From contig JADBWK010000004.1 in the NCBI GenBank assembly GCA_020404895.1, positions 1 through 64,000 on the forward strand: a stretch of 64,000 bases of DNA, written 5' to 3'. The notes below the pieces were generated by a model. It did no database searches. It saw only the letters and a program-made list of their open reading frames with translations, and was not told where the DNA came from. Positions 2,059-37,268 of the stretch are shown here, one piece after another. The DNA is from Pseudanabaena sp. M085S1SP2A07QC. GTDB lineage: Bacteria > Cyanobacteriota > Cyanobacteriia > Pseudanabaenales > Pseudanabaenaceae. A program made the translations under genes and the position numbers. The first letter of the stretch is position 1, and each line of letters opens with the position of its first letter.

Positions 2059-2100
2059 AATCAAAAAAAGAGGGTGTTTTACACCCTCTTTTTTTTGATT
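2059..2100. terminator. Bidirectional intrinsic terminator between Z-ISO and sasA
   Basis: Stem GAGGGTGT / ACACCCTC with a TTT loop, flanked by seven A's on the left and eight T's on the right. It therefore acts as a hairpin plus U-tract on both strands. It lies between two convergent genes and overlaps the sasA stop codon. Confidence 0.9.
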
Positions 2101-3211
2101 AATAAACGGGAAGCGTAAATCGGAAACAACTGCCTTTTTTGCCGATCGCATCATCCACCCAGATATGACCATAATGCGCGGTAATAATGCGGCGACAAAG
2201 TGATAAGCCAATACCATAGCCATCAGCATCGCCATCACGTTCTAGTCGATAACGCTCCTCGAAAACGCGATCGCGCATTTCCGCAGGTATCCCTGGTCCG
2301 TTGTCAGTAATGCTAACTTCAATCTTCTGAGAAGTACGATGCATAACTGTTAGCTCGATTTTGCCGCCTTCGGGGGTGTATTTTGTCGCGTTACCTAAGA
2401 GGTTGATTAAGACTTGACGAATTTTTTCTTGATCGATATAAACAGGCGGCAAATCGGTAGGAATATCCTTGACTAATTTTTGGTGCTTCCCCTCAAGACA
2501 TTTACTGAAATAAAAATCACTCACTACGCTATGACATAGCTGATCAAATTGGATTTTTTGGCGTTGCGTACGAAATTGGGCATTAGCACCTCGTCCTGCT
2601 TCAAGAATGTCGGTGATCATGCTGTCAGCATCACGCGCTTTGTTGCGAGCATGTTTGAGTAAGCGAGACACCGTTTGTGGATCGATTTTGTCTCCGCTTT
2701 TTTCGATCGTATCGATCGCTAATAAAATTGCGGTTAAGGGATTTCGCAGATCATGGGCTAGCATCCCTAAGACTCGATCCTTAAAACGAATTTGCTCCTC
2801 AATTTCAGATTTTTCTTGTGACAGTCTAAACACGTCATCAGCAAGACGTGCAACTTCATTCATATAGTCAATATTCTGAGCAAGTTCGGGCGGATGATTA
2901 TTTGTTTTGTCTAATACCTGCTGTTTCCAAGTATCCAAGCTATTTTCTAGCTGTTTAAGTATGTTTTTCCCCGCGATCGTTTGTCTTGGTAAAGGAGACA
3001 ATTTAAGCAAAGCTGGCGACATGACGACTTTAAATAGTTCGGCAAGTTGTGGCTGACTTGCCACATTAATTATTTGGAGTTCGGATTTGCAATCATTTTC
3101 TCGTTGCAAAAATTCCTCCACTTCCTTGACTAAATCCTTTGCCTTGGGGCGATCGTCAATAAATAGTAAGAGTTGTAGGGTTGATTCAGGTAATGTTGGA
3201 ATAGTCCTCAT
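2099..3211 (-). CDS. sasA: Circadian clock output histidine kinase SasA
   Basis: Has the N-terminal KaiB-like thioredoxin-fold domain diagnostic of SasA (residues about 5-95: LQLLLFIDDRP, SPALLKLSPLPRQT). A helical linker follows, then a HisKA domain with the phospho-acceptor H153 in LAHDLRNPLT. The HATPase_c domain has N-box LLGNATKYTP, G1 DNGPGIP and G2 GYGIGLSLC. Known role: reads the KaiC phosphorylation state and phosphorylates RpaA to drive rhythmic transcription. ATG at 3211 is preferred; a TTG six codons upstream is possible. Soluble, no membrane segment. No response regulator is adjacent, as is usual for this gene. Confidence 0.93.
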   Translation of the reverse strand: MRTIPTLPESTLQLLLFIDDRPKAKDLVKEVEEFLQRENDCKSELQIINVASQPQLAELFKVVMSPALLKLSPLPRQTIAGKNILKQLENSLDTWKQQVLDKTNNHPPELAQNIDYMNEVARLADDVFRLSQEKSEIEEQIRFKDRVLGMLAHDLRNPLTAILLAIDTIEKSGDKIDPQTVSRLLKHARNKARDADSMITDILEAGRGANAQFRTQRQKIQFDQLCHSVVSDFYFSKCLEGKHQKLVKDIPTDLPPVYIDQEKIRQVLINLLGNATKYTPEGGKIELTVMHRTSQKIEVSITDNGPGIPAEMRDRVFEERYRLERDGDADGYGIGLSLCRRIITAHYGHIWVDDAIGKKGSCFRFTLPVY

Positions 3212-3271
3212 TAGTTTTCGGACTCGCAACGGATTTTTTAAGACATTCTTAATAATTATATTATTGTTCTC

Positions 3272-5728
3272 ATGGTTTTACCTCAACAGCGATGGCAGAT
3301 TTTCTCACCACAACCAGATTTGTCACGAGAGATCGCTGATTCTACGGGACTTTCACCCATAATCGCGCAAGTTTTGCTAAATCGCGGTATTAACACGACC
3401 GAAGCTGCCAAGGTTTTTCTTGATCCCGAACTGGAAGATTTGCCTGACCCAAAACAAGAATTTCCTGACTTAATCAAGAGTATTGACCGTATTGAACTAG
3501 CCATTAAAAATGGCGATCGTGTTAACATCTGTGGCGATTACGATGTCGATGGCATGACCAGCACGGCTTTACTGATTCGTACTTTGCGATTATTAGGAGG
3601 AAATGTCGAATATGAAATTCCTAATCGGAAGAAGGATGGCTATGGAATTAATAAGACGATTGTGAAGGCTTGTCATGATCGCGGCGTGAAATTAATTATT
3701 ACTGTAGACAATGGCATAAAGGCTTATGATGCGATCGCCTTTGCCAAATCCTTAAATATTTCTGTAATTATCACCGATCACCACGATATTCCCAAAGAAA
3801 TTAGCGAAATTCCTCCCGCAACGGCGATCCTCAATCCTAAATATCAAGTCGATCCAAATTCACCTTATGCATCGATCGCTGGAGTTGGTGTTGCATACGT
3901 CTTGGCTTTGGAATTAAGCGATCGCTTTGGCAAACGTTCTGAATTAGAAAATCCATTATTAGAATTATTTACACTAGGTACAATTGCTGATCTCGCTTCA
4001 CTCACAGGCATCAATCGCCGCTTAGTAAAAAAAGGTTTGCGCTTACTTTCTCAGTCGAAAGTGATAGGAATTATTGCTCTAATTAATGAAACGGGAATTG
4101 CCAAGGATAAACAAACGGGAATGAAACCTGAAGCGATCGGGTTTGGTTTAGGTCCCAGAATTAATGCGATCGGTCGCATTGGTAATCCGCAGGTAATTAT
4201 TGATCTTTTAACTTGTGAAGAAATGGGAGAAGCGATCGCTTTAGCTCAAGAATGTGAAGCCACTAATCGCAAGCGTAAAAAGTTGTGTACAGATATCGAA
4301 GAAGAGGCGATCGCCTATATGACCCAAAAAAAGTCGGAAGGTTTTGATATTACGCAGGAACGGGTTTTGGTAATTGTCGATCGGGAAGTTCAAAATGCCC
4401 TCACTTCGTTTAAAAATAAAAAAACAAAATCTACATCACCTGAAGAAAATGATTTATCTAAGTCTAAGGGCTGGGATCATGGAGTAATCGGAATTGTTGC
4501 TTCTCGACTAGTGGAACGTTATGGCGCACCCGTATTTATCGGTAGTTATGAAGATGCTCATTCCGAGGATTTAGGAACAGATTGCCAAGAAGCAAATCAT
4601 CAAGGCGCAACTATTAGATTCTCAGTGCGAGGTATTCCCGAATTCCATGTTTCCGATTCCCTAGAATATGAGTATATCAAGAGTATTCGGAATAAAGGTG
4701 GTGGACATAAAGCCGCAGGAGGATTTACACTTCCTGCGGAGAACATAGAGAAGTTACGAAGCGGACTAAGAGAATTTGCCGATCGCGAAAATATTCTCCC
4801 TAGTCACATTAGCCCACTGATTAATGTCGATGTCCTAGCTGATCTTAGTGATATCTCGATGACGATGTTGCAAGCCTGCGATCGCCTCCAACCTTGTGGA
4901 CTCGGCAATCCCGATCCTGTATTTTATAGCGAAAATGTGCGAGTACTTGCTCAACAAACTCGTGGTAAAGATAAAGTCAAACATCTTTCGCTTACGCTGG
5001 ATACGGGCAATGGCGAAAAGCTGAAGGCGATCGCATGGCGATGGGGAGAATATTGTCCTGTGCCTGATTATGTGGATATTGCCTATAAGTTAAGGGCTAA
5101 TCAATGGCAAGATACAACTTCAGTAGAATTAGAAGTAGTTGGTATTCGCGAGGCAACAGGTACAGCGATGAAAAGTTCTCAAAATTTGCCTAAGCAATTA
5201 CAATTGCAATATAACCCTGCTCCAATAATTACGAAATTTCCTCAATGGCAGAAACTGAGTGAAGCGCCAAGACCTTTGCCTCGTCCGTTATTGCTATATG
5301 GGTGTGATCGCCCTGCTGATAAATTTCAAGGTGATGTCGATTGCGATCGCCCTCAAAGAGGTCGAGGTTATCAAGCGATCGTGCTTTGGTCTATGCCGCC
5401 ATCTTTCACGCATCTACAATGGCTAATTGCGATCGCGAAACCCGACTATATCTATCTCGGCTCCCATATTCCTTCTGTTCCTTCTATCGATCAATTTCGC
5501 GCCCAAGTTCAATCTCTCGATTTAGAGAATATCAAGATTCTCAATCTCTTAGATCTTGCCCAGCAATGGTGGATTGCTCCTAGTGCGATCGTCTCGGCTT
5601 TACGCGAATTAAACTACATCTGCGATTTCCCTCCGACATTACCACTTGATGGCGAACTTCTCAGAATGCAAAAATGGTATGGAATTGCGATTAATAAAAT
5701 TGCAGTAATTCTTGCTGATCAAAAATAA
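3272..5728 (+). CDS. recJ: Single-stranded-DNA-specific exonuclease RecJ
   Basis: A 5'-3' ssDNA exonuclease for recombination and mismatch/base-excision repair. DHH-family motifs: CGDYDVDGMTST near residue 88, TVDNGIKAYDA, and the name motif TDHHD near 170. The DHHA1 motif GGGHKAAGG follows near 475, then an OB-like nucleic-acid-binding domain ending near 620. The protein has 818 residues, longer than the E. coli enzyme (about 577). It carries an insert around residues 370-400 and a C-terminal extension typical of cyanobacterial RecJ. Many HIP1 octamers mark it as native. It is divergent from sasA with a short shared upstream region. Confidence 0.95.
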   Translation: MVLPQQRWQIFSPQPDLSREIADSTGLSPIIAQVLLNRGINTTEAAKVFLDPELEDLPDPKQEFPDLIKSIDRIELAIKNGDRVNICGDYDVDGMTSTALLIRTLRLLGGNVEYEIPNRKKDGYGINKTIVKACHDRGVKLIITVDNGIKAYDAIAFAKSLNISVIITDHHDIPKEISEIPPATAILNPKYQVDPNSPYASIAGVGVAYVLALELSDRFGKRSELENPLLELFTLGTIADLASLTGINRRLVKKGLRLLSQSKVIGIIALINETGIAKDKQTGMKPEAIGFGLGPRINAIGRIGNPQVIIDLLTCEEMGEAIALAQECEATNRKRKKLCTDIEEEAIAYMTQKKSEGFDITQERVLVIVDREVQNALTSFKNKKTKSTSPEENDLSKSKGWDHGVIGIVASRLVERYGAPVFIGSYEDAHSEDLGTDCQEANHQGATIRFSVRGIPEFHVSDSLEYEYIKSIRNKGGGHKAAGGFTLPAENIEKLRSGLREFADRENILPSHISPLINVDVLADLSDISMTMLQACDRLQPCGLGNPDPVFYSENVRVLAQQTRGKDKVKHLSLTLDTGNGEKLKAIAWRWGEYCPVPDYVDIAYKLRANQWQDTTSVELEVVGIREATGTAMKSSQNLPKQLQLQYNPAPIITKFPQWQKLSEAPRPLPRPLLLYGCDRPADKFQGDVDCDRPQRGRGYQAIVLWSMPPSFTHLQWLIAIAKPDYIYLGSHIPSVPSIDQFRAQVQSLDLENIKILNLLDLAQQWWIAPSAIVSALRELNYICDFPPTLPLDGELLRMQKWYGIAINKIAVILADQK

Positions 5729-5787
5729 TCACATATACTTATAGCTGATCTACTTGAAGATTCTTTGGAAAATTTTGGAGACTAATT

Positions 5788-6018
5788 ATGACCGTCGCAA
5801 CATATCCAAACTTGCTCAAAAGGACTGTTCTTCTCTATCGCGATGAAGATGGCTATTTTATTGTGGAAGTTCCCAGTTTAGCTGGTTGTGTCAGTCAAGG
5901 TGAAACTAGAGAAGAAGCTCTAGCCAATATCCAAGAAGCGATCGCTTTGCATATCGAAGTTTTACAAGATCGGGGTGAGCCTATTCCCAATGACAATATC
6001 GAAGTCATTTCGCTATAA
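5788..6018 (+). CDS. HicB-family antitoxin
   Basis: 76 residues with the HicB fold signature: a DEDGYFIVEVPSLAGCVSQG strand region, then TREEALANIQEAI and a short C-terminal tail. Family knowledge: HicB binds and blocks the HicA mRNA interferase and represses its own operon. The usual C-terminal DNA-binding helix-turn-helix or ribbon-helix-helix is absent in this short form. Transcribed just upstream of the HicA gene; antitoxin-first order is common in cyanobacteria. A HIP1-like GCGATCGC within the gene suggests long residence. Confidence 0.88.
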   Translation: MTVATYPNLLKRTVLLYRDEDGYFIVEVPSLAGCVSQGETREEALANIQEAIALHIEVLQDRGEPIPNDNIEVISL

Positions 6019-6087
6019 GTAAACTTTATTGCCAAAAAAACATGTTTGCTTTATTTTGCGAATAATAACGTTAAAGGCTATTTTGAT

Positions 6088-6309
6088 ATGAGTAAACTCC
6101 CTGTAATTTCGGGTGCGGAGTGCATAAAAGCATTAGAAAAAGTTGGCTTTGTTGTCAATCGTCAACGTGGTAGCCACATTACATTAGTTCGACAAGAACC
6201 ATCAACTCAGTTAACCGTTCCCAATCATAAAACTATAGCCAAAGGGACTTTGAGAACAATCATTCGTGATTCAGGCTTGACAGTGGACGAGTTTGTGGAT
6301 TTATTGTGA
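6088..6309 (+). CDS. HicA-family mRNA interferase toxin
   Basis: 73 residues with a double-stranded-RNA-binding-like fold: LPVISGAECIKALEKVGF, then RQRGSHITLVR with the catalytic-type Gly-Ser-His, and VPNHKTIAKGTLRTIIR. Family HicA toxins cleave mRNA using this histidine. The start is taken at the ATG at 6088 (MSKLPVISG); an in-frame upstream start at 6046 would add 14 non-conserved residues. It lies 69 bases after HicB, so the two probably share a transcript. Every expected motif is present, so it looks intact. Confidence 0.87.
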   Translation: MSKLPVISGAECIKALEKVGFVVNRQRGSHITLVRQEPSTQLTVPNHKTIAKGTLRTIIRDSGLTVDEFVDLL

Positions 6310-6364
6310 GAATTTTATTTGACATAAAAAACTGATCAGATTTTTTTGATCTAGAAAAATATCC

Positions 6365-6520
6365 TTAAAGCTTTGCCATATTTGCTTTCATGATAAATCT
6401 TTCGAGAGTGACAATCTCTACGCGATCGCCATAGGGAATATATTACTGCAAATCACCTGAAATATAGAATTCGCGCAGAGTCCAACCTTCACCACCAAGG
6501 ACTAAAGAGCGCCTCAAAAA
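6365..6520 (-). pseudogene. Degraded coding remnant of unknown family
   Basis: On the minus strand one frame reads about 50 plausible residues (LVLGGEGWTLREF, then YIPYGDRVEIVTLERF, then MKANMAKL). It is interrupted by a TAA after GDLQ and has no start upstream of 6520. Codon use and the single internal stop suggest the end of a decayed gene. I do not recognise the family. The rest of 6310-6614 is AT-rich, with one HIP1 site at 6423 and no gene. Confidence 0.35.
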
Positions 6521-6614
6521 TCAATCGCAAGAATAACGTACTATATTCATATATAGAGATCATTTTTGTTGTAAGCTAATTAGCCATTTGTTTTAAAAAT
6601 GTGTAAAAATTTCC

Positions 6615-7550
6615 GTGAGTATAACAAAAACAGAAATGACTGAATTATATCAGCCTGAAAAAACGACATCTCGGCGTAGAAGTAGTAATCTTGTTTTACG
6701 TCCGTTTCTCAAATGGGCTGGTGGTAAAAGACAACTATTACCAGTCTTAAGACAATATATTCCTAAAAACTGGAGTTCTGGTTCTAGTAAATATTTTGAA
6801 CCATTTATTGGGGCTGGGGCATTTCTATTTGATTTACAACCCAAAAAAGCACTTATTAATGATACTAATAAAGAGCTAATCAATTGCTATCTAACAATTA
6901 AAGATAATCCAGATGAATTATTAGAACTTACCAGAGAATATCAAAAGAATATTTCTAAAAAACGTTACTATGAGTTGCGTGAATTAGATCGTGACCCAGA
7001 AGAATTTGAACAGCTTTCTAACGTACAAAGAGCCGCAAGAATTATTTATCTAAATAAGACTTGTTTTAATGGACTATTTCGAGTCAATAGTCAAGGTCAG
7101 TTTAATGTTCCTTATGGTGACAATAAAAACCCTATAGTTGCAGACGAAGCTATTATTAAAGGAATAAGTAAATACTTAAACAAAAATAAAATTGAAATTA
7201 CAAGTCAAGATTTTAAAGATGCAGTTTCCAAAGCAAAAAATGAGGATTTTATATACTTTGATCCTCCCTATGATCCTGTATCTGATTCATCATCCTTTAC
7301 TGGCTATGACATGAATGGTTTTGGCAAAGAAGAACAAATTTGTCTACAAAAATTAAGTGAGCGTCTAATTGATAAAGGCTGTAATGTTTTACTCAGTAAC
7401 TCATCAACAAATTTTATTAAAGATCTTTATAGTGACAAACAATATTATTCAATTATTGAGGTGGCTGCAACCAGACATATTAATTCTGTTGGCACAGGAA
7501 GAGGAAAAATTAATGAAGTAATAATTTTTAGTAAGTACGATGTCAAATAA
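6615..7550 (+). CDS. Dam-type DNA adenine N6-methyltransferase (D12 class)
   Basis: Transfers a methyl group from SAM to adenine N6. The SAM-side motif FLKWAGGKRQ is at residues 31-40, and FEPFIGAGAF near 62 corresponds to motif I. The catalytic DPPY starts at residue 216 and is followed by a SSSFTGYDMNGF segment like that of GATC-specific Dam and DpnM enzymes. GATC specificity is therefore likely but inferred. Starts with GTG at 6615 (ATG at 6636 is an alternative). Its stop lies 11 bases inside the next gene, making a tight R-M operon. The gene is AT-rich and lacks GCGATCGC, unlike its neighbours, which points to horizontal acquisition. Confidence 0.92.
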   Translation: MSITKTEMTELYQPEKTTSRRRSSNLVLRPFLKWAGGKRQLLPVLRQYIPKNWSSGSSKYFEPFIGAGAFLFDLQPKKALINDTNKELINCYLTIKDNPDELLELTREYQKNISKKRYYELRELDRDPEEFEQLSNVQRAARIIYLNKTCFNGLFRVNSQGQFNVPYGDNKNPIVADEAIIKGISKYLNKNKIEITSQDFKDAVSKAKNEDFIYFDPPYDPVSDSSSFTGYDMNGFGKEEQICLQKLSERLIDKGCNVLLSNSSTNFIKDLYSDKQYYSIIEVAATRHINSVGTGRGKINEVIIFSKYDVK

Positions 7551-8853
7551 CTCAAAAAAAGAAAAATCAAAGAATGATAAAGCTTGGGAAATTCTTTTCC
7601 ACAAGTACAATATTTTAGATGAGATTCACAAGAATGGAATATATAAAATTTCTGCAACAGTAATCAATGAAGAGCGAGAAGCTCGTTTAATGACAAAGTT
7701 TGATCATAAGATTCAACTTCCTCTTATTTTTCAAGACAATCATCTTACTATTCAACCTGATTCGAGGGGAACATATATTATTGGGAAATTTGAGAGTTAT
7801 AAAGATATTTCCAAAAGGGAAGCAGAATTTACAAGCATTTCAGAAATTCCTTTTCCAGAGTATATTGAAACTCTAACTCCAACAAATATTTACTCAGAAT
7901 CAGCTTCTATTCTCTGTGCTTATCATGCCGAGATTATAAGTGATCTTGTGGGGGAGGAAGTCTTATTTACTGTTTCAGGACGTATGTCAACAGGTAGATT
8001 TAGTTACTCTATAAATAATTCTCAAGAAGATATCCACTATGAAATAAGTGTCGAAAATTCACAATGTGAAATTGATGGAGGATTTGAAGGTGCAAATGTA
8101 TTTGCAATTATTGAAGCCAAGATTGGAGAAATAGATGATATTTTGATTCGACAACTCTATTATCCTTACCGACTTTGGACAGATAAAACTTCCAAGCCAG
8201 TTATTCCGATTTTCATGTACTATTCCAACGATATCTTTTCTTTTTATATTTATGAATTTAAAGATAAATTTAACTATAACTCAATTGAACTAGTAAAGCA
8301 AAAAAGGTATCAAATAGGCTCAAATGATATCGAATTAGATGATGTTACGAATATCCTTGCAAAGGTTAAAGTTACACCTGCACCAACTGAAATACCTTTC
8401 CCTCAAGCTAATATTTTTATTAGAATTGCAGATCTACTAATGCAAATTCATGGTGTTAATCCTGTGTTATCAAAAGAAGACATAGCTATTAACTATGCGT
8501 TCAATATTAGACAAGCTGGATATTATGCAGACGCGGCTAGATATCTTGGTCTTTTACAAAAAGATCGTAATAAAGAGCAAGGTGTATTTTATTCAATGAC
8601 TGAAAAAGGTCATACAATTATGGCAAAAACTACTAGGAATAGAAATCTAGCTCTAGTTGAATGCATTATTGAGAAAGAGATTTTCAACAAAACCTTAAAA
8701 ACTTATCTAGATGAAGGCGGCGAACTGAATCAACATCTAATTTGTGAAATAATGACAAATGAAAATATTGGACTCAGTAAATCGACTATTGAAAGGCGAT
8801 CTTCGACCGTTTTCGGTTGGGTTAAATGGATAATGGGACTTACCCAGCGATAA
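7540..8853 (+). CDS. Probable type II restriction endonuclease partner of the Dam-type methylase
   Basis: 437 residues, overlapping the methylase gene by 11 bases. A PD-(D/E)xK-like core is visible: an Asp in IDGGFEGANV near 178, then IIEAKIG with E193-A-K195, then a hydrophobic RQLYYPYRLW helix containing the Gln often found after the motif. The C-terminal third (ISKEDIAINYAFNIRQAGYY..., then a YLGLLQKD turn and STIERR) resembles a winged helix for DNA contact. I do not recognise homology to DpnII, MboI or Sau3AI. Function is inferred from context plus the core motif; it presumably cuts the site its partner protects. AT-rich and HIP1-free. Confidence 0.72.
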   Translation: MSNNSKKEKSKNDKAWEILFHKYNILDEIHKNGIYKISATVINEEREARLMTKFDHKIQLPLIFQDNHLTIQPDSRGTYIIGKFESYKDISKREAEFTSISEIPFPEYIETLTPTNIYSESASILCAYHAEIISDLVGEEVLFTVSGRMSTGRFSYSINNSQEDIHYEISVENSQCEIDGGFEGANVFAIIEAKIGEIDDILIRQLYYPYRLWTDKTSKPVIPIFMYYSNDIFSFYIYEFKDKFNYNSIELVKQKRYQIGSNDIELDDVTNILAKVKVTPAPTEIPFPQANIFIRIADLLMQIHGVNPVLSKEDIAINYAFNIRQAGYYADAARYLGLLQKDRNKEQGVFYSMTEKGHTIMAKTTRNRNLALVECIIEKEIFNKTLKTYLDEGGELNQHLICEIMTNENIGLSKSTIERRSSTVFGWVKWIMGLTQR

Positions 8854-8894
8854 CAGAAATTTTGAGTAATAGCTGAGTAAGTAAACTATTCAAA

Positions 8895-9611
8895 TTAAGC
8901 AGCAACTAGCAAGCCTGCACTAGATTGTTTTGGCAGCACATCGACAACATCTATCTTGGCGCAGTAGGCGATATCTTCAGCACCATTGAGGTTCAACAAG
9001 CGTTTACCATGACTCGCTTGATAAAATAAGTCTTCAACCTCACCTTTCCAAGCTTTGTATAGGGTTGCGGCTGCGATCGCTTCATCATTTCCAAAATCAG
9101 CCTCATCTTCAAGGTTGAAGGCGATCGCACCCGCACAGGTTGTATCTTCAAGCGAATAGCTACCTTCCCAGCCAGAGCCAACGATCCACACAGTTTCAGG
9201 CTTAGTTTCGCGGAGATACCTCAATACTGAGCCAAGATTAATCATCGCGCAAGCAAGAACACTCTTAGCATTGGCGATTTTTTGTAGCGATCGCGTGCCA
9301 TTAGTTGTACTCATAAAAATCCGTTTACCCTTCACAACTTCGAGCGTAAAGTCAAAGGGTGAATTTCCTAAATCACAACCTTCTACAGTCTTCCCCCCAC
9401 GCTCACCAACGCGAATCCGTAACTCAGGTGGGTGTGCTTCGCTGACGCGCATTAGCTCATCAAGATCGGAAAATACTTGCACTCCCTCAGCTCCCGCAGC
9501 TAGGGCTGTGGCGATCGTAGTGGTTGCTCGCAAAATATCTACAGCGATCGCGCAATCTGGATTTCCTTCAGCAGGCACTAACTCAGGCGTGTGATAAACA
9601 AAGATTTTCAT
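8895..9611 (-). CDS. comB: ComB-family 2-phosphosulfolactate phosphatase
   Basis: 238 residues with the ComB signature: [18 protein letters not shown] near the N-terminus, [26 protein letters not shown] and a [19 protein letters not shown] segment. In methanogens ComB dephosphorylates phosphosulfolactate in coenzyme M synthesis. Cyanobacteria keep a homologue whose physiological substrate is unsettled, so the biochemical name is by family only. The end of the gene faces the restriction-modification pair. HIP1 octamers return here, marking the right edge of the island. Confidence 0.85.
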
Positions 9612-30988: not shown

Positions 30989-31369
30989 GTGGGTTGGCGT
31001 GTACGTGGCGTTCGTGGTGCAACAACAGTTGAGGCAAATACATACGAAGCCCTAGAGAGGGCTGTGCTAGAGCTTATGGAGGAGATCGAGGCACAAAATG
31101 ATATTGATCCGCGCGAAATTGTAAGTGCGACTTTTTCGGTAACAACAGATATTGATGTAGTATTTCCTGCCAAAATCGCCCGATCGCGATCGCAATGGGA
31201 AAATGTCCCGCTTTTAGATGTGCAGCAAATGTATGTTAATGGCAGTCTAGAGCGTTGTATCAGGGTATTAATTCATGTGAATACACCACTTGAGCAGCAT
31301 CAAATCAAGCATATTTACCTAAATGGAGCTAGAGATTTACGTCCAGATCTCGTTTACGCTCAAATTTGA
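30989..31369 (+). CDS. aroH: Chorismate mutase, AroH type
   Basis: Monofunctional chorismate mutase of the trimeric AroH class: chorismate to prephenate, for Phe and Tyr. 126 residues starting at a GTG (30989): MGWRVRGVRGATTVEANT carries the active-site Arg of the N-terminus. DIDVVFPAKIAR and the C-terminal half CIRVLIHVNT with its Arg complete the site. The stop codon lies inside the first arm of a terminator hairpin. Confidence 0.95.
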   Translation: MGWRVRGVRGATTVEANTYEALERAVLELMEEIEAQNDIDPREIVSATFSVTTDIDVVFPAKIARSRSQWENVPLLDVQQMYVNGSLERCIRVLIHVNTPLEQHQIKHIYLNGARDLRPDLVYAQI

Positions 31370-31442: not shown

Positions 31443-33485
31443 ATGGTCACAAGAATTTTTCTGTGTAACGAGCAGACAGAGCCAGAGATTCGCGATTTTA
31501 TTCGTGAAGCGATCGCCGATATCTCTGAGGGTGAGCAGTATATCGTTACGTGGAACTGCGGCAATATTCAAACCCTCAAAGTGGGCGATCGCGCTTATTT
31601 TAAGCGGATCGGGAGTGCCAATCAGGGTTATTTCGCGGCGGGGACAGTCGTTCCTGCCGATCGCGAATATCAGCTTAAGCTGCGATCAGCTCGGTATCGC
31701 GAACTGAGTGAAGCCTATGACATTGACTCACAAGCCAATAACTTTCGGATATGGGTAGCTTGGGATGCTTGCGTTACCTTTGATGAGCCACTCAGGACAG
31801 ATTATTTACGGCAGTTGCCCCACTTTCAAGGAATGCCTCTCGAACCGCAGACTGATGCGGGGGTATTTCGTGAAGAATATGTGCGGATGCTCGATCGCGA
31901 ATGGGAGAAACAAACTCAAAAGGCGTTTCGAGCTGGCAAGGGGATTAGCTTAATCGATGTGTATTACCGCTGGGGATTAGAAGATATTCAGCAAGGGTTC
32001 CCACAGGATGCTCTAGAGTCATTTCGGCAAGCACTTAAGCTCAACCCTAATTTCATCAAGGCATATTTGGGTTTAGGTGATGCCCATGTCAGTTTACGCG
32101 AATATGCTAAAGCTGTAGGTGACTATGGCAAAGCAATATCTATGCGACCCGACAAGGCGCGTCTAGCATATTTTAAACGCGGAGAAATCAATTTGTTGTT
32201 GGGACAACTTCAGCAAGCGATGGCAGATTTCCAAGCATCGATCGCTATCGATCCAAATTTTGCTGACGCTCATATGTCTCTTGGCAATACATACTTCAAG
32301 CTCAAGAGTTACGAGCAGGCGATCGCTTGCTATAGTCGTACCATGGAGTTAAGCCCCAACCTCGACCTAGCTGCATTTCGGCGGGGGCGATCGCATTACA
32401 TTCTCAAAGAATTTCCTGAAGCGCTTCGCGATTTTAGCTATGCGATCGAGTTACAGCCGAGTAACGTTGATGCATACTACTATCGCGGCTTAACCTATTC
32501 TCAACCTGATATTGCTGATGAGACTCTCGCGGGTGATGATTTACGAAAGGCGATCGTCCTATATCAAACTCAGGGTAAACCTGACAAGGCGAAAAAAGCT
32601 AAGGAATTTTTAGAAACTCTTGCGATTGATTCTCTACCTAAGGCAAGACCAAGAAGTAGCTTTGCGATCGCAGCTTCTGCCACAGACCCAGTTATGGATA
32701 CTGCCACCGAAGCGATCGCTGTGGAAGTCCCACTAGCTATGGCTACAAGTAATAATGATGATATTGATGATAGGGATGAGGAGTCTAGCAAGCTGATTAT
32801 TGCGACAGAGCCAATTGCTAATGAGGTCGCCATCTCAAAAGCTGAAGAAGCGATATCGGACTTGACTGAAGCGATCGAAAAGATCATGGAAGTTGAAAAG
32901 ATTGTCGAAAAAATTGTTGAAGTAGAAAAAATTGTTGAGGTTGAGAAGATTGTTGAAGTAGAAAGAATAGTCGAGGTTGAGAAATTTGTTGAAGTTGAGA
33001 AAGTTGTCGATCGCGTGGTCGAAAAGTTTGTCGATCGAGTAGTCGAGAGAGTAGTCGAAAAACCGATTCCCTTCTCCATTGAAGATCCGAGTACTGCGGA
33101 AAAACTGGCGATGATCTCAGTGATGGCGCAATATATGCGCGATGGCTGGATGGTGCGATCGGTGGATAAATCTCAAGTTGGCTACGATCTTGAATGTACT
33201 AAAGATAATACTTGCGAAGCAGTAGTAATTAAGAGCTTCACTAGCGATCGAGAGTCCTTTGCAATTTCTGCGATCGAGATTGAAAATGCCCGTAGCAATA
33301 AGGATTTTGTATTGTGGGTAGTAAGCGGCGCAGCCGAAAATCCTGAATTACGCTGTCTACGCGGTCGGGAGCTATTCGAGCAATTTGATCTCGATCCTCT
33401 CGCCTTCGCCGCCAAAGTTCGGCAGTCAGCAGTGCAATTAGAATTTACGCCAGTTTCTCTAGAAATGCCACAATTCGAGCAGTAA
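31443..33485 (+). CDS. Mosaic protein: EVE/PUA-like domain, TPRs, VEK-rich coil, nuclease-fold-like C-terminus
   Basis: 680 residues in four parts. Residues 1-135 resemble EVE/PUA-like base-reading domains: EGEQYIVTWNCGNIQTLKVG, DRAYFKRIG and GYFAAGTVV. Residues about 165-395 are TPRs (DALESFRQALKLNPNFIKAY and repeats). Residues about 481-540 are a run of VEKIV/VEVEK units, probably coiled. Residues 555-680 contain GYDLEC, CEAVVIKSF and FVLWVVSG, the layout of DUF3883/PD-(D/E)xK domains, but Val stands where the catalytic Glu-x-Lys glutamate is expected. It may be a modified-DNA or RNA sensor with a degenerate nuclease. Function is inferred from layout only; the gene itself is clear and HIP1-rich. 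Confidence 0.7.
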   Translation: MVTRIFLCNEQTEPEIRDFIREAIADISEGEQYIVTWNCGNIQTLKVGDRAYFKRIGSANQGYFAAGTVVPADREYQLKLRSARYRELSEAYDIDSQANNFRIWVAWDACVTFDEPLRTDYLRQLPHFQGMPLEPQTDAGVFREEYVRMLDREWEKQTQKAFRAGKGISLIDVYYRWGLEDIQQGFPQDALESFRQALKLNPNFIKAYLGLGDAHVSLREYAKAVGDYGKAISMRPDKARLAYFKRGEINLLLGQLQQAMADFQASIAIDPNFADAHMSLGNTYFKLKSYEQAIACYSRTMELSPNLDLAAFRRGRSHYILKEFPEALRDFSYAIELQPSNVDAYYYRGLTYSQPDIADETLAGDDLRKAIVLYQTQGKPDKAKKAKEFLETLAIDSLPKARPRSSFAIAASATDPVMDTATEAIAVEVPLAMATSNNDDIDDRDEESSKLIIATEPIANEVAISKAEEAISDLTEAIEKIMEVEKIVEKIVEVEKIVEVEKIVEVERIVEVEKFVEVEKVVDRVVEKFVDRVVERVVEKPIPFSIEDPSTAEKLAMISVMAQYMRDGWMVRSVDKSQVGYDLECTKDNTCEAVVIKSFTSDRESFAISAIEIENARSNKDFVLWVVSGAAENPELRCLRGRELFEQFDLDPLAFAAKVRQSAVQLEFTPVSLEMPQFEQ

Positions 33486-33612
33486 TCAACTAATAGCTTT
33501 TAATTTATCTGTAATGTTAAATGTCATGCTCCCTTTCGGCTATTATTCTCCCAACTCTTTTGAGATTGCTATATTATGGTGAAATCAAGGCATGTATTAG
33601 AGATCAAGTTAT

Positions 33613-36704: not shown

Positions 36705-37268
36705 CTAAAAAATCACATCTTCATAGAGAGAGTCAAATTCCCCTTCAAAGTTGATGCTCGATAATTGGAATTTATCTTGCTCTCCAGAATATGTCTGTAA
36801 AAACCAGCGTCCCTCTTCTTTCCGAAAACAATCAAGGCGTTGACGTTTGGTGTTAACTAAAGCATATTCTTCGAGACTCTCTAGTTGTTGGTAATCAGCA
36901 AATTTATCCCCTCTATCAAATGCTTCTGTAGACTTTGATAGAACTTCGATAATTAGTTTTGGGAAACGCTTATGATTTGGAGTTTGGGTATCTCTAGGAT
37001 CGCAAGTCACCATGACATCTGGGTAATAAAAGCGATTCAATGCATCTATTCTTGCTTTCATGTCAGACATATAGACTCGACAACTAGTACCGCGCAAATG
37101 GTTTCGGATTACAAAAGCCATGTTTAGGGCGATCGTGACGTGAGGATCGTTTGCACCAGCCATTGCATAAACATACCCATCGATATACTCATGTTTAATA
37201 TCGCTTTTTTCCTCCATTTCGAGATATTCGTCTGGAGATATGTAATTAAATTTTGGACTGGCAATCAT
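36705..37268 (-). CDS. Uma2-family PD-(D/E)xK protein (DUF820)
   Basis: 187 residues: YISPDEYLEMEEKSDIKHEY and IDGYVYAMAGANDPH, then the core FYYPDVMVTCDPRD (Asp) and KLIIEVLSKSTEAFDRG (Glu), and YQQLESLEEYALVNTKRQR with a C-terminal beta region. Core residues are intact. The family is nuclease-like by fold; its biological role is not established. It lies convergent to the broken Uma2 gene; sequences differ enough that they are not a recent tandem copy. Confidence 0.9.
   Translation of the reverse strand: MIASPKFNYISPDEYLEMEEKSDIKHEYIDGYVYAMAGANDPHVTIALNMAFVIRNHLRGTSCRVYMSDMKARIDALNRFYYPDVMVTCDPRDTQTPNHKRFPKLIIEVLSKSTEAFDRGDKFADYQQLESLEEYALVNTKRQRLDCFRKEEGRWFLQTYSGEQDKFQLSSINFEGEFDSLYEDVIF

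Follow-up and report, generated by a model that had tools for sequence, protein, structure and literature searches.

A gene kept in every sampled Pseudanabaena genome encodes a protein that carries, on a single chain, a predicted reader of modified bases and a nuclease-like domain, here with Val in place of the expected catalytic Glu. The gene occupies positions 31443 to 33485 (+) of the window, that is, the whole stretch of 64,000 nucleotides that was analyzed, and its product of 680 aa is laid out as an EVE-like domain, a TPR region, a VEK-rich linker and a degenerate NOV_C domain. The explanation that we favor, at about even confidence, is that a modification-dependent nuclease architecture now serves Pseudanabaena as a chromosomal reader or adaptor whose nuclease is impaired or dead. 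The ORF starts with ATG and yields its 680 aa with no internal stop. The full-length orthologues that were compared are 79 to 99% identical to the product, so this is a real gene and not a chance ORF.

The N terminus is predicted to be a divergent EVE domain

The N-terminal domain occupies residues 1 to 165 (31443 to 31937, +). Pfam EVE (PF01878) matched the 680-aa protein weakly (E = 0.095, 13.1 bits), below the gathering cutoff of 23. An alignment of 14 rows, A2, served as the input for an AlphaFold2 model and for profile searches; W37, V47-G48-D49, G62, G67, Y85, S89, Y92 and W154 were invariant among the 14 aligned relatives. The model of residues 1 to 165 had a pLDDT of 90.8 and displayed a PUA-like β-barrel of the EVE type. 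Its top structural matches were the EVE proteins 2ar1, 2eve, 1zce and 2gbs (Z about 10 to 11), with E values of 5e-6 for 2ar1 and 2e-4 for 2eve in Foldseek and Z scores of 11.2 and 10.2, respectively, in VIA-align. Lower down were THYN1, whose structure was determined with 5-methylcytosine DNA (Z = 9.7), and then, at a Z of about 9, the YTH domains. The EVE/PUA-like N terminus proposed in a previous sequence-only reading was thus borne out. The fold predicted for residues 1 to 160 is that of THYN1 and of bacterial and protist EVE proteins (5j3e, 2eve and 2ar1), which differ from the window protein in being single-domain chains of 149 to 171 residues and share only 12 to 16% identity with its domain. 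A search of PDB sequences with the EVE-like or the NOV_C profile gave nothing meaningful. The A2 profile did reach proteins of the EVE-HNH type (L125, L124, L127 and L126; E values from 4e-16 to 3e-12), and L125 lies above the Pfam EVE cutoff, at 24.1 bits. We take residues 1 to 165, as modeled, to be a divergent EVE domain.

PUA-superfamily folds include RNA readers, and together with the YTH matches this would suit an adaptor on the RNA side, in which the EVE/PUA domain would read a modified RNA (mRNA, tRNA or rRNA) while a housekeeping complex would be brought in by the TPR and NOV_C parts, DNA modification playing no role. Such a role would also agree with the household genes, rather than a defense island, around the gene (see below). 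However, EVE proteins outrank YTH domains among the structural matches, and the nearest architectural relatives are nuclease fusions, one of them within a type I restriction-modification (R-M) operon. We consider an RNA-side role unlikely.

The middle of the protein, where TPRs had been recognized earlier, contains five Pfam TPR_1 stretches at residues about 172 to 390 (31956 to 32612, +). The VEK-rich linker lies at residues 484 to 538 (32892 to 33056, +). It is a hexad repeat (E-K-I-V-E-V) with a period of 18/36 at the DNA level; the sequence-only reading had called it a VEK-rich coil, which was right as to the repeat and loose as to the coil, since the period is 6 and not 7. The length of the linker differs among orthologues, and it is absent from a family member of 552 aa (L049). 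It is probably a spacer.

The C-terminal nuclease fold has an incomplete active site

At the other end, residues 552 to 638 (33096 to 33356, +) matched NOV_C (PF13020, DUF3883) with an E value of 5.9e-10 and 39.5 bits, above the gathering cutoff of 22.1. The C-terminal model, of moderate confidence (pLDDT 76), displayed a restriction-like PD-(D/E)xK core. It matched mostly PD-(D/E)xK nucleases, with Z scores of 10.0 for I-Ssp6803I, 9.5 for Hjc and 8.9 for NhoI, and also RecU, DpnI and EcoRV. The C terminus is therefore of the DUF3883 type, as had been supposed. Structure prediction gave a PUA/EVE fold at one end and a restriction-like fold at the other, the outcome on which the sequence-only reading had staked its case.

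The motif GYD-x12-ExK could be aligned without gaps between the window protein (GYDLECTKDNTCEAVVIKSF) and its Nostoc relatives (GYDLTCTKDSIIKNVEVKGV). Val595 (33225 to 33227, +) occupies the site where ExK has its catalytic Glu, just as the sequence-only reading had it, while the conserved Asp582 of the GYD motif (33186 to 33188, +), Lys597 of ExK (33231 to 33233, +) and the helix residue Glu612 (33276 to 33278, +) are kept. The canonical D...ExK site is thus incomplete, one of its three residues being changed. Across Pseudanabaena, the Glu site is Val or Ile. It is Ala in genus g7. G028 has Ser at this site and Arg instead of the Lys; genus g6 retains EVK but carries Lys in place of the Asp. 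As a control, 29 further NOV_C domains were read from cyanobacterial genomes, and all of them had the catalytic Glu; the count leaves out seven additional fetched loci that were not resolved. Some control domains appeared at first sight to have lost Glu, but only because a longer loop had shifted their alignment; they in fact read FIEVKG. A NOV_C-like domain, that of L117, has Asp at the catalytic Glu position.

In a tree of the N-terminal region (215 columns, with long outer branches and no inferred root), Pseudanabaena, g7, G028 and g6 came together (99/98). Within this group, g6 stood apart from the other three (93/83), and Pseudanabaena had g7 as its neighbor (100/98). The simplest reading of these sequences would be that Glu was lost once, in the branch of G028, g7 and Pseudanabaena, and that Asp changed separately in g6. 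The tree, having no inferred root, does not by itself settle the ancestral state.

One missing residue is no proof of a dead enzyme, and D582, K597 and E612 remain. In some PD-(D/E)xK enzymes, for example those of the Cfr10I type, the acidic residue has moved to another position. The protein might accordingly still be an active modification-dependent nuclease or nickase, with Glu612, 15 residues past the Lys, having taken over as the catalytic acid in a Cfr10I-like manner. The conservation of D582, K597 and E612 across the genus, the intact nuclease motifs of relatives and the strong purifying selection on NOV_C would all agree with such an enzyme. However, Glu612 was invariant throughout the NOV_C domains aligned, including those with an intact EVK, and is therefore not a compensating gain; the Val or Ile that replaces Glu is hydrophobic; and the gene is still kept where the Lys has gone as well (G028) or the Asp has gone (g6). 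An enzyme that still cuts seems doubtful to us.

Relatives in other cyanobacteria include fusions to HNH_2 and to an intact NOV_C

The N-terminal domain was found in 46 of 388 genomes of Cyanobacteriia. Outside Pseudanabaenaceae, it was joined to TPR and HNH_2 at nine loci of Nostoc and other cyanobacteria (L056, L059, L061, L062, L114, L115, L118, L119 and L122) and at a divergent tenth, L116; Pfam was run on representative relatives, and the other HNH assignments were made from visible shared sequence. These proteins share the N-terminal domain and the TPR with the window protein, whereas their effector is an HNH_2 nuclease instead of a degenerate NOV_C. In L122, the gene lies between hsdS and hsdR in a type I R-M operon (region 2073 to 9472), and several Nostoc copies lie amid apparent household genes. 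The combination of N-terminal domain, TPR and NOV_C was found outside the family at L054, L055 and L117, the last with its NOV_C-like domain. The two Nostoc proteins L054 and L055 share three domains with the window protein, with 43 to 44% identity in the EVE-like domain and a gap-free alignment of the active site; unlike it, they have an intact D-E-K (GYDLTC...VEVKG), one TPR and no VEK linker.

The gene is conserved in sequence and in place

The gene was present in 26 of 26 sampled Pseudanabaena genomes (the source genome and 25 others), with one copy split over contigs (G006) and another carrying a single in-frame TGA (G024). Four other genera of Pseudanabaenaceae were covered by seven genomes, none of which matched the N-terminal domain. 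The chorismate mutase gene aroH (CM_1; 30989 to 31369, +) was directly upstream in 17 of the 19 Pseudanabaena or Pseudanabaena-type records read, L038 and L044 being the exceptions, and the downstream side varied from species to species. The earlier proposal that the gene is native is thus supported. Values of dN/dS (Nei-Gojobori, medians over nonsaturated pairs, and rough because dS was high in many pairs) were 0.033 for EVE, 0.037 for NOV_C, 0.054 for TPR and 0.139 for the linker, the fastest-evolving part. Both the EVE and the NOV_C ends are under strong purifying selection. The value for NOV_C is near that for EVE, which indicates that the altered domain is kept; purifying selection would be equally expected if the enzyme were active.

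These data also bear on whether the protein is an ordinary active type IV restriction enzyme with a role in defense. Bell et al. (2020, PMC7641849) described fusions of EVE to PD-(D/E)xK and to HNH and proposed them as type IV restriction enzymes, and the layout of the window protein resembles that of the former: an EVE-type reader and a restriction-like nuclease domain in one chain. The window protein differs from those fusions in that a TPR array and the VEK linker lie between the two domains, the catalytic Glu is lost, and the gene is genus-wide at a conserved chromosomal place. The neighborhood consists of aroH and other household genes and is no defense island. With a copy in all 26 genomes of the genus and aroH upstream in 17 of 19 records, the patchy, mobile, defense-island distribution typical of type IV enzymes, though not strictly defining for them, was not seen. 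A search of viral contigs with the N-terminal family returned no relative, and a phage origin is therefore unsupported here; PADLOC matched nothing in the protein beyond TPR. A type IV enzyme joins a reader to a complete canonical active site; here the reader-like fold is present and the site, missing its Glu genus-wide, is incomplete. We therefore do not file the protein as a type IV restriction enzyme, and consider an ordinary active one quite improbable.

A possible reader or adaptor derived from a restriction enzyme

Shared ancestry with the EVE-nuclease (type IV-like) architecture is well supported. The reader/adaptor explanation, which we put at about evens, draws on the domain order, the predicted folds, the loss of Glu, purifying selection, genus-wide retention, the linkage to aroH and the homology to nuclease fusions; the ligand, the loss of catalysis, the partner, the direction of evolution and the regulatory outcome are what we infer. 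The ancestor would have been an EVE reader followed by TPR and a PD-(D/E)xK or HNH nuclease. The EVE-like barrel may bind a flipped modified base, base flipping into the EVE pocket having been argued by Bell et al. (PMC7641849). The TPRs would bind a partner protein, and NOV_C, devoid of its catalytic Glu, may contact nucleic acid or offer a surface to the partner without cutting.

Since every sampled Pseudanabaena keeps the gene, a restriction-type nuclease may have become a native sensor. In a more specific and distinctly more tentative form, a restriction-type EVE-nuclease would have been domesticated in Pseudanabaena and its relatives as a native epigenetic reader of modified bases, whether those of the cell itself or those of an invader, with the pseudonuclease and the TPRs relaying the signal. 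The C5-cytosine methyltransferase family was matched two or more times in each of the 26 Pseudanabaena genomes, so that the ligand might be made by the cell itself. The "regulatory or defense sensor" of the sequence-only reading is plausible: a native role would agree with the conserved place and the purifying selection, and the proteins closest in architecture are fusions with nucleases.

That reading had found no family that it could name. This was only partly right, given the EVE-PD(D/E)xK and EVE-HNH fusions already described (PMC7641849). The main text of PMC7641849 mentions neither cyanobacteria nor TPR nor DUF3883. Among the papers searched, none matched EVE domain, cyanobacteria and TPR together, and a NOV_C query gave unrelated papers. 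As delineated here from sequences, the putative cyanobacterial EVE-TPR-nuclease set and its genus-wide branch with a degenerate nuclease had no description that we could find in searchable papers. To our knowledge, noncutting bacterial readers of modified bases have rarely been described. The genera with different changes at the nuclease site, together with intact relatives elsewhere, would offer a tractable series from restriction enzyme to regulator.

Other restriction-related and EVE-like genes

A HindVP-type restriction endonuclease gene paired with a C5-cytosine methyltransferase gene was observed between the gene and pepN in two records (L043, 8106 to 10129; L031, 8113 to 10135). The corresponding window positions (33486 to 33612) lack the pair, L031 has a broken endonuclease frame, and methyltransferase coordinates suggest a similar downstream pair in G006 and G017. 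A functional link to this pair was considered and dropped: a few species have it, the window does not, and of the two copies read one has a broken nuclease frame. A putative restriction endonuclease gene of the Uma2 family lies nearby in the window (36705 to 37268). In a genome of another family, a NOV_C protein with an intact VEVKG (L142, 5745 to 6740) is encoded between ORFs of 1104 aa and 1702 aa that look helicase- and restriction-type, possibly a defense island. Stand-alone EVE-like domains of about 165 to 190 aa were found in a Pseudanabaena MAG (L058, 5992 to 6510), a Nostoc and another cyanobacterium (L060, 6001 to 6495, and L113, 5929 to 6423); in the tree, a long branch unites L058 with L060.
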